From Flavobacteriales bacterium (lineage in GTDB: Bacteria; Bacteroidota; Bacteroidia; Flavobacteriales_E; Vicingaceae), in contig JABWCF010000019.1 of assembly GCA_013359255.1 (NCBI GenBank), positions 1 through 51,568 on the forward strand: 51,568 bases of DNA, given 5' to 3'. Positions 42,713-43,769 of the stretch are shown here, in pieces (positions within the stretch are counted from its first letter, which is position 1; every line of letters begins with the position of its first letter). The position numbers and the translations under genes are program-made. The notes under the pieces were generated by a model. It was not told the DNA's origin. It did no database searches and was given only the letters and a program-made list of their open reading frames with translations.

Positions 42713-43175
42713 AGATTGCTTCGCTAACGCTCGCAATGACGGCCGAGATTTTGATTCGTCATTGTGAGGGAGGCACGACCGAAGCAATCTGTTTATTTTG
42801 TACTCCGAATTAGAAAGATTGCTTCGCTAATGCTCGCAATGACGGCCGAGATTTTGATTCGTCATTGCGAGGGAGGCACGACCGAAGCAATCTGTTGCAT
42901 TTTACTCCGAATTAGAAAGATTGCTTCGCTAACGCTCGCAATGACGTAGCAAAATTGGAAAGATTGCTTCGGCTCTTTCGTATAAACCGCTTTATTGCCT
43001 CGCAATGACAGCCGAGATTTTGATTCGTCATTGCGAGGGAGGAACGACCGAAGCAATCTGTTTATTTTGTACTCCGAATTAGAAAGATTGCTTCACTGTG
43101 TTCGCAATGACGTAGCAAAATTGGAAAGATTGCTTCGGCTCTTTCGCACAAACTATTTTATTGCCTCGCAATGAC
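42713..43175. repeat. REP-like palindrome cluster, left part (9 units)
   Basis: Three unit types recur. A: AGATTGCTTCGC...CGCAATGAC, 27-28 bases, at 42713, 42816, 42918, 43085. B: 49 bases, AGATTGCTTCGGCTC...CTCGCAATGAC, at 42961 and 43127. C, inverted: GTCATTGCGAGGGAGG...CGAAGCAATCT, 33 bases, at 42758, 42861, 43027. A or B is joined to an inverted C by a constant 17-base spacer (nGCCGAGATTTTGATTC), making a larger inverted repeat. C is joined to the next A by GTTTATTTTGTACTCCGAATTAGA or a close variant, and A to B by GTAGCAAAATTGGAA. This fills 42660-43198; no gene is seen in it. Confidence 0.92.
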
Positions 43176-43186
43176 GGTTAAAAAAT

Positions 43187-43194
43187 TATTTTTG
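43187..43194 (+). promoter_or_regulatory. Candidate -7 box (TATTTTTG) for the GIY-YIG gene
   Basis: TATTTTTG fits TAnnTTTG and ends four bases before the ATG at 43199, so the transcript would be leaderless or almost so. It lies 12 bases after repeat unit B2. No TTG at the right spacing. Confidence 0.35.
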
Positions 43195-43198
43195 CATT

Positions 43199-43495
43199 AT
43201 GGAACGAGGAGGATATATCTACATTATGACTAATAAAAATAATTCTGTTTTGTATGTTGGCGTTACAAATAATCTTCAAGCAAGGGTTTACGAACACAAA
43301 ATTAGAGTATACAAAAAAAGTTTTACAGCCAAATACAACATTGATAAACTCGTCTATTTTGAAGGATTTACATCTATTGATGAAGCTATTGGCAGAGAAA
43401 AACAAATAAAAGCGGGTTCACGACAAAAGAAACTTGATTTAATTAATTCGTATAATCCCGAATGGGAAGATTTATATAATAAATTACAACCGTAA
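43199..43495 (+). CDS. GIY-YIG family endonuclease (URI domain), embedded in palindromic repeats
   Basis: A 98-residue single-domain protein of the UPF0213/YhbQ-like GIY-YIG family. GYIYIM (residues 5-10) and YVG (19-21) give the two halves of the GIY-YIG sheet. Arg29 in QARVYEHK, with His33, is the catalytic helix; Glu67 in AIGREKQIKAG is the metal ligand; NPEW (86-89) is near the end. All expected active-site residues appear present. No other domain is fused. It is flanked on both sides, within about 25 bases, by REP-like palindromes, which suggests that the nuclease and repeats are functionally linked. Confidence 0.9.
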   Translation: MERGGYIYIMTNKNNSVLYVGVTNNLQARVYEHKIRVYKKSFTAKYNIDKLVYFEGFTSIDEAIGREKQIKAGSRQKKLDLINSYNPEWEDLYNKLQP

Positions 43496-43519
43496 TAATT
43501 TATTCTCTCTTTTTTTACC

Positions 43520-43769
43520 GTCATTGCGAGGGAGGCACGACCGAAGCAATCTGTTGCATTTTACTCCGAATCAAAAGATTTCTTTACTGTGTTCACAATG
43601 ACGTAGCAAAATTGGAAAGATTGCTTCGGCTCTTTCGTACAAACCGCTTTATTGCCTCGCAATGACGGCCGAGATTTTGATTCGTCATTGCGAGGGAGGC
43701 ACGACCGAAGCAATCTGTTTATTTTGTACTCCGAATTAGAAAGATTGCTTCGCTAATGCTCGCAATGAC
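43520..43769. repeat. REP-like palindrome cluster, right part (5 units)
   Basis: It continues the pattern of the left part: C at 43520-43552, a diverged A at 43576-43602 (AAGATTTCTTTACTG...), B at 43618-43666, C at 43684-43716, A at 43742-43769, with the same spacer sequences. The gap 43770-43859 before the ALDH-like gene holds nothing else visible. Confidence 0.92.

Follow-up and report, generated by a model that had tools for sequence, protein, structure and literature searches.

CGTC-tagged REPs make up one of two large REP super-families; they have been sorted into four families from five phyla and include dRS3 (CGTC-1) of Neisseria and RPE-6/RPE-4 of Rickettsia (Di Nocera, De Gregorio and Rocco 2013, PMC3733652). 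In the sections of that paper drawn on here, these repeats have an unpaired CGTC tag at one end (TGTC and CCTC being admitted), AT first stem pairs and stems of 8–9 bp, occur mostly as HH dimers and form clusters in Neisseria (dRS3) and Wolbachia, and REPs are placed mostly downstream of genes. According to the same sections, CGTC REPs 'apparently lack a dedicated transposase', and no tyrosine transposase gene flanked by CGTC sequences is reported for the species named. Among the matches listed in our literature searches (open-access, preprints excluded), no later paper named a partner of CGTC REPs, and no bacterial paper in open-access PubMed Central joined GIY-YIG proteins to these repeats; a search with the repeat sequences returned unrelated papers only. 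The available text of a 2006 phylogenomic survey of GIY-YIG proteins (PMC1564403) contains neither 'COG2827' nor 'palindrom', that of RepRanger (2025, PMC12306157) contains none of 'GIY-YIG', 'nuclease' and 'RAYT', and in that of PMC6006769 'CGTC' occurs in the reference list alone.

Here we describe a clade of small GIY-YIG nucleases, found in many bacterial phyla, whose genes are placed next to palindromes or between them; the feet of these palindromes are constant (GTC... / ...C) and their self-complementary stem varies. The gene studied probably encodes the cognate nuclease of a REP element with the CGTC tag, an element that spreads together with its palindromes, and its protein is a strong candidate for the enzyme, so far missing, by which the 'orphan' CGTC repeats are spread.

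The window, i.e. the whole stretch of 51,568 nucleotides analysed, carries this gene in an array of 1.06 kb. On recounting, we agree with the initial annotation that 14 palindromic units of three types (six A, three B and five inverted C) surround an intact GIY-YIG gene. Twelve of the 14 match ATTGCTTC-N5..35-GCAATGAC exactly; C at 42758 and A at 43576 are substituted and fall outside this pattern. The features of the array are as follows.

42713–42740, minus strand: unit A1, GTC tag at its right end (exact pattern)
42741–42757, no strand: 17-base spacer of the A1–C1 pair
42758–42790, plus strand: unit C1, one outer-arm substitution
42816–42843, minus strand: unit A2 (exact pattern)
42844–42860, no strand: 17-base spacer of the A2–C2 pair
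42861–42893, plus strand: unit C2 (exact pattern)
42918–42945, minus strand: unit A3 (exact pattern)
42961–43009, minus strand: unit B1, with a long loop (exact pattern)
43010–43026, no strand: 17-base spacer of the B1–C3 pair, which corresponds to the gene-bearing pair but has no gene
43027–43059, plus strand: unit C3 (exact pattern)
43085–43111, minus strand: unit A4 (exact pattern)
43127–43175, minus strand: unit B2, left partner of the gene (exact pattern)
43164–43185, no strand: left arm of the inverted repeat (22 bases, 95% complementary) that encloses the gene
43199–43495, plus strand: GIY-YIG nuclease gene, 98 aa (PF01541)
43510–43531, no strand: right arm of the inverted repeat (22 bases, 95% complementary) that encloses the gene
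43520–43552, plus strand: unit C4, right partner of the gene (exact pattern)
43576–43602, minus strand: unit A5, degenerate
43618–43666, minus strand: unit B3 (exact pattern)
43667–43683, no strand: 17-base spacer of the B3–C5 pair
43684–43716, plus strand: unit C5 (exact pattern)
43742–43769, minus strand: unit A6 (exact pattern)

The spacer between A or B and the following C, annotated as a constant 17 bases, has this length in four of the five pairs, but in the fifth (B 43127–43175 and C 43520–43552) the nuclease gene stands in its place. The gaps between A and B are 15 bases (3/3) and those from C to the next A are 23–25 bases (5/5); the array is thus composed of A-17-C or A-15-B-17-C modules separated by 23–25 bases. 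Measured against shuffled sequences, single units are weak hairpins that barely surpass the shuffles, if at all, with folding z values of 0.01 (A), −1.09 (B) and 0.64 (C), and only neighbouring pairs form strong hairpins (z approximately −5); unit A folds into 5 bp followed by an inner 2 bp. The strict pattern was found 20 times in the 2.92-Mb genome, 12 of these within the array, and its reversed control was not found (0 matches). In this genome, units lie within approximately 30–340 bases of the starts of contigs C7, C14 and C15; the assembly may therefore break at arrays, so that the unit count represents a lower bound. The genome contains one match to the nuclease family model. That no RAYT is visible holds for the array but not strictly for the genome, which yields two weak matches to Y1_Tnp (the better with E 3.4e-9).

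The gene product (98 aa, ATG to TAA) matches PF01541 with an E-value of 1.8e-16. An alignment of 42 family members revealed that Y8, Y19, G21, R29, H33, E67 and N86 are invariant, and all of these except G21 are what we take to be the catalytic residues of a GIY-YIG nuclease. The structure was predicted with a pLDDT of 94.3, and its best Foldseek matches were the UPF0213 protein 1zg2 (E 2.6e-4), followed by Slx1 (4xlg; E 7.1e-3, TM 0.59). Slx1, a eukaryotic enzyme, cleaves branched DNA together with its partner Slx4. The nuclease is under purifying selection: dN/dS was 0.03–0.27 in 11 of the 12 pairs that yielded a value and 0.59 in the other, a thirteenth pair being saturated. No NCBIfam family scored above its cut-off, one PHROGs family of unknown function matched, and phage records contained no match to the protein at 1e-8.

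A protein scan of the genome collection identified 112 relatives, of which 80 loci were analysed together with the window (81 in total). The record titles cover Bacteroidetes, Chlorobiota, Ignavibacteria, Calditrichota, Nitrospirae, Spirochaetes, Deltaproteobacteria, Planctomycetes (Phycisphaerales, Brocadia), Patescibacteria, Zixibacteria, Melainabacteria, Atribacteria and Poribacteria. Units with the arms GTCATTGCGAG/CGAAGCAATCT (up to three mismatches) lie within 1 kb in 71 of the 81 loci, window included (271 units; reversed arms, 0), and a whole-genome search of 18 of the relatives' genomes detected canonical units in 16, with 5–148 in each (reversed control, 0). Reading the flanks of copies in unit-poor genomes revealed other stems at several of them, e.g. 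GTCATTTCGAG..CGAGAAATCT or GTCATCCTGAA..TTCAGGATCT. The repeat motif of the initial annotation is common beside relatives, but CATTGCGAGG...GAAGCAATCT turns out to be a single stem among many. What stays constant is the foot, in the plan GTCA + stem ... stem' + TC and likewise in the CGTC-tagged REPs described in 2013, and the stem itself varies.

The rule GTCA-N4...N4'-TC was set after these flanks had been read, so that loci obtained earlier are not blind tests of it; L191–L210, L231–L290, L321–L335 and L371–L400 were obtained afterwards. Within 500 bp, a unit of this general plan occurs on either side of the gene in 78 of the 81 loci and on both sides in 61, compared with 5–14 and 0–2 for 13 control feet, and only L044, L061 and L091 have none under the strict rule. 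Homologues are thus repeatedly flanked by units, as had been anticipated. The corresponding figures for 122 Bacteroidota copies from 72 genomes are 108 and 83 (controls, 6–28 and 0–6), and 14 have no unit; these copies were selected by hand from those listed, 40 of them mostly from genomes poor in canonical units, and were reduced from 129 by dropping six duplicates and L150, which has no gene. Among the loci obtained after the rule was set, a unit was present at 17 of 20 copies from genomes with no more than one canonical unit (16 with other stems; three without any unit), at 52 of 60 further copies and at 12 of 15 loci from the plasmid collection (controls, 0–4), the dRS3 cluster of N. gonorrhoeae being one of the 12. 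The 15 plasmid loci were taken from 32 records, 10 of these 15 loci being from Alphaproteobacteria, and the three without a unit under the strict rule are from Novosphingobium, S. meliloti and R. tumorigenes. Relatives from the family of the window genome, also obtained after the rule was set, have a unit in 13 of 17 cases at 90 bits or more (controls, 1–4), and same-family relatives below 90 bits in 2 of 13 (controls, 0–3). The narrow motif of the window was rejected as the defining feature on account of the 16 of 20 checked copies with other stems.

An 11-kb region (L406, G413:C1:1480900-1491900) contains 58 unit detections, some of them nested, with at least two stem types and at least three nuclease copies, and on a Planktothrix agardhii plasmid (L321, 17359–20613) the nuclease and its palindromes have a type IIL restriction-modification gene on one side and drmA of DISARM on the other.

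In the non-coding DNA of the 80 relatives, the density of units is 7.10 per kb near the gene and 0.78 per kb far from it (55 units in 70.7 kb), i.e. a nine-fold enrichment adjoining the gene. Those 55 distant units, and the position of REPs mostly downstream of genes given in the cited sections of PMC3733652, would fit ordinary intergenic regulators (terminators or mRNA-stabilising hairpins) among which the gene tolerates insertion. We judge this very unlikely, because it does not account for the nine-fold enrichment and bracketing on both sides, for the fact that GIY-YIG genes of lower score and Y1 loci show little excess, if any, or for the match between stem and nuclease lineage within genomes (both described below).

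The association depends on which enzyme is considered. Copies scoring at least 80 bits against the family model have a unit in 204 of 228 cases, and those below 80 bits in 13 of 37, some of these low-scoring loci overlapping (L164/L175/L404 and L185/L187/L189/L403); the control foot GACA was found at 27 of 228 and 7 of 37, respectively. The excess at high scores, with little below, indicates that the partnership is mainly that of this nuclease clade and not of GIY-YIG proteins at large, which were rejected as general partners on the 13 of 37. Long GIY-YIG frames, assigned to UvrC/exonucleases by frame length only and used as a further control, had a unit in 4 of 15 cases, anywhere in approximately 3.2 kb.

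Y1_Tnp matches are present in 145 of the 198 Bacteroidota genomes surveyed, that of the window included, and RAYT (Y1) transposases could in principle be the movers of these units, as of GTAG REPs, the GIY-YIG gene being incidental. This is barely credible in view of the loci themselves: in genomes with 4–190 canonical units, a unit occurs at only 3 of 20 Y1 transposase loci (control feet, 1–6 of 20), and RAYTs were rejected as the mover on this background level. Likewise, a genome with more than 400 units (G002, below) has no Y1_Tnp match, and no CGTC-flanked tyrosine transposase gene is reported for the named species in the cited sections of PMC3733652.

A more distant GIY-YIG group forms tandem arrays at tRNA genes (L401, G620:C9:905400-911200; L402, G623:C2:182900-187100; L403 and L404, both G186). 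Such arrays comprise 10.2 copies of 457 bases (99% matches) or 7.8 copies of 379 bases (96%), and in the consensus each repeat apparently has a stretch resembling a tRNA 3' end beside the nuclease gene. No CGTC unit was found within 500 bp of them, and they look like a second kind of GIY-YIG element.

To characterize tag and stem, the nearest unit of each locus with at least 14 bases between its stems was used (145 units); GTCA and TC were part of the selection, and this subset excludes compact units with long stems, such as those of Alphaproteobacteria and Neisseria. The base before GTC is T in 75 units, C in 50 and another base in 20, in agreement with the CGTC-REP tag, and the stem base after A, which the rule leaves free, is T in 135 of 145, in agreement with the AT stem start. 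Beyond A and the four pairs, the next three positions are paired in 19, 21 and 37% of units, within the shuffled range, and the fourth in 63% (46% when shuffled); window unit A does not have a stem of 8–9 bp. TC is followed by T in 118 and by C in 23 of the 145 units; the tail is CT in the window and CCA in A. lipoferum, and the published tail is mostly CCA. In N. gonorrhoeae, a relative of the nuclease (39% identity) lies among dRS3-type units.

Among the 198 Bacteroidota genomes, the gene is present in 106, in up to 11 copies, and the canonical unit in 80; in the family of the window, 26 of 29 genomes have the gene somewhere. The gene and at least two canonical units occur together in 47 genomes, the gene with fewer than two units in 59 of its 106, such units without the gene in 10 and neither in 82 (odds ratio 6.5, p 1.3e-7). 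A comparison made within families, for which E 1e-25 served as the cut-off for the gene, gave an odds ratio of 6.3. A larger set drawn via G198, a MAG titled Limnohabitans, has the gene in 206 of 395 genomes and apparently comprises the same Bacteroidota genomes, so that it is not independent. The proposed link between repeat number and the gene is therefore visible as an association (47 of 106 genomes with the gene and 10 of 92 without have at least two units), but a strict dependence is contradicted by G002. Neither of the two results named as refuting in the initial annotation was obtained: repeats are not equally abundant in genomes lacking the nuclease, and most homologues of the gene do not stand apart from repeats.

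G002, a single contig of 3.9 Mb, contains 421–456 units by two patterns, and neither a small GIY-YIG gene nor a Y1_Tnp match was found on the whole contig. At the places listed, nearly all units are of a few almost identical forms, and 8 of 21 inspected units stand in inverted pairs with approximately 14 bases between them. Either the nuclease has been lost recently, or it acts from elsewhere, or another enzyme does the work. In this genome (L407–L436), tandem half units (CGTCATTGCGAGG plus several bases) precede many units, as if tag-side repeats pile up at the outer end; a pile-up of half units with another stem is also seen in the Planktothrix locus L321.

We compared stem type with nuclease phylogeny using a tree of 103 of 123 rows, from which partial genes and copies without a unit had been dropped; each copy was labelled with the stem of the majority of its units, ties being decided by the nearest. 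The 17 stem types require 53 label changes on this tree, compared with a mean of 75.5 and a minimum of 67 in 1000 shuffles. When labels were shuffled within genomes, which holds host and composition fixed, the mean was 64.6 and the minimum 58, and none of 2000 shuffles reached 53. In 15 multi-copy genomes, comparison with the nearest foreign copy showed a shared stem in 23 of 52 cases, and comparison with the remaining copies of the host genome in 17 of 160. Both nearest units have the same stem at 38 of 83 copies (shuffled, 7.4 and at most 17). Enzyme and repeat thus co-vary, even among copies of one genome.

Several sites are informative on mobility. In A. lipoferum, the nuclease gene and two dimers (dimer-gene-dimer) lie between sufB and sufC, and A. 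oryzae, A. ramasamyi and strain B510 (94.5–95.5% identical) have a short sufB–sufC gap with no units or gene. The Azospirillum records listed besides A. lipoferum, 11 with these three, cover 69–74% of the stretch (1.57–1.71 kb compared with 2.2 kb). The lack of the whole block in these relatives points to insertion. A single site on Sphingobium plasmids exists in three states, namely with the gene or its remnant between two palindromes (L330 and L342–L344), with a solo palindrome (L339 and L341) and with neither (L340). At L339, the solo palindrome is made up of the outer halves of the palindrome pair that flanks the gene in relatives, and may be a scar of gene loss or an ancestral target. The view that the window array, which separates two ALDH genes, arrived later is supported by two genomes of the same family (G636 and G620) and the more distant G663, in which the ALDH frames abut. 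The congener G610 has a single unit pair without the gene after ALDH1, and ALDH2 is on another contig, with a half unit remaining upstream of ALDH2 (L366 and L367); the array may have been a rearrangement point there. In Shinella, a locus of 79% identity lacks the gene and has diverged too far for boundaries to be drawn, and no empty site was found for R. tumorigenes among the best 20 of 473 records. Inverted repeats are present around the gene, and the flanks of empty sites are too diverged for a target-site duplication to be read.

A nuclease that makes the repeats and one that homes into them both fit most of these data. The three states of the Sphingobium site, the many units and missing gene of G002 and the gene-free pair at the window's site in G610 would all be in keeping with the nuclease being a parasite that homes into pre-existing CGTC REPs moved by something else. 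We regard this as unlikely: it leaves the within-genome match of stem and lineage unexplained, unless homing is stem-specific, as well as the absence of both the dimers and the gene in the relatives of A. lipoferum, and Y1, the one other enzyme examined as a mover, is at background level. Purifying selection and the Slx1-like fold would also suit a host-useful resolvase of REP cruciforms, found near them by linkage and with no role in spread; the patchy presence of the gene (106 of 198 genomes, up to 11 copies) and its presence or absence at single sites suggest a mobile element rather than a housekeeping gene, and make a resolvase of this kind quite improbable.

The partnership of nuclease and repeats is strongly supported by proximity, co-occurrence and stem co-variation, but it does not extend to strict dependence, since G002 has hundreds of units and no gene. 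From these sequence comparisons we infer that the nuclease cuts or moves the repeats. It would recognize the foot and stem of its own palindromes as hairpins or cruciforms and nick or cut there, a mode of action that we think most likely because the predicted structure matches UPF0213 1zg2 and then Slx1. The gene and palindromes might then spread together through repair of the break with an element-bearing copy, in a homing-like manner, or, alternatively, a cut fragment might be released and re-joined. Palindrome pairs and arrays without a gene would be its non-autonomous derivatives, in the way that GTAG REPs are considered to derive from RAYTs. More broadly, the whole superfamily of CGTC REPs, with dRS3 and the Rickettsia RPEs among them, may be products of an unrecognized class of mobile elements, the only gene of which is a stem-specific GIY-YIG nuclease. 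This would be a second REP-making system beside RAYTs, evolved independently and relying on hydrolytic cuts and their repair rather than on HUH chemistry, in which every nuclease lineage is adapted to a hairpin stem of its own; we hold this generalization to be evenly balanced between true and false. The origin of CGTC REPs has now become testable, as they bracket, in many phyla, a gene whose lineage predicts the stem better than chance. If the nuclease acts on the repeats, dRS3, RPEs and many unnamed intergenic palindromes would share one mechanism, and REP systems would have arisen on at least two occasions, from unrelated enzymes; this would also make available very small nucleases whose hairpin specificity can be read.

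Compared with known systems, the present units share with published CGTC REPs an unpaired CGTC/TGTC tag, an AT stem start, inverted pairs and sometimes large clusters; they differ in having a GIY-YIG partner, more stems and a wider range of phyla, and the window stems are 5 bp followed by mismatches whereas those published are 8–9 bp. Free-standing and 98 aa long, the nuclease has the catalytic domain and apparent mobility of GIY-YIG homing endonucleases of the I-TevI kind, but it lacks a second Pfam domain and lies among palindromes, and no intron or intein was noticed. UPF0213-like small GIY-YIG proteins and Slx1 are its nearest folds, although GIY-YIG proteins below 80 bits show little palindrome excess. 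REPINs are two-palindrome units, and the two-palindrome units of the window array resemble them. We know of no strand-transfer chemistry for GIY-YIG enzymes. The present system has in common with RAYTs and GTAG REPs a small nuclease bracketed by tagged palindromes and a repeat-specific enzyme, and differs from the RAYT system (REPtron) in that the enzyme is a GIY-YIG rather than an HUH/Y1 protein and the tag is mostly (T/C)GTC rather than GTAG.
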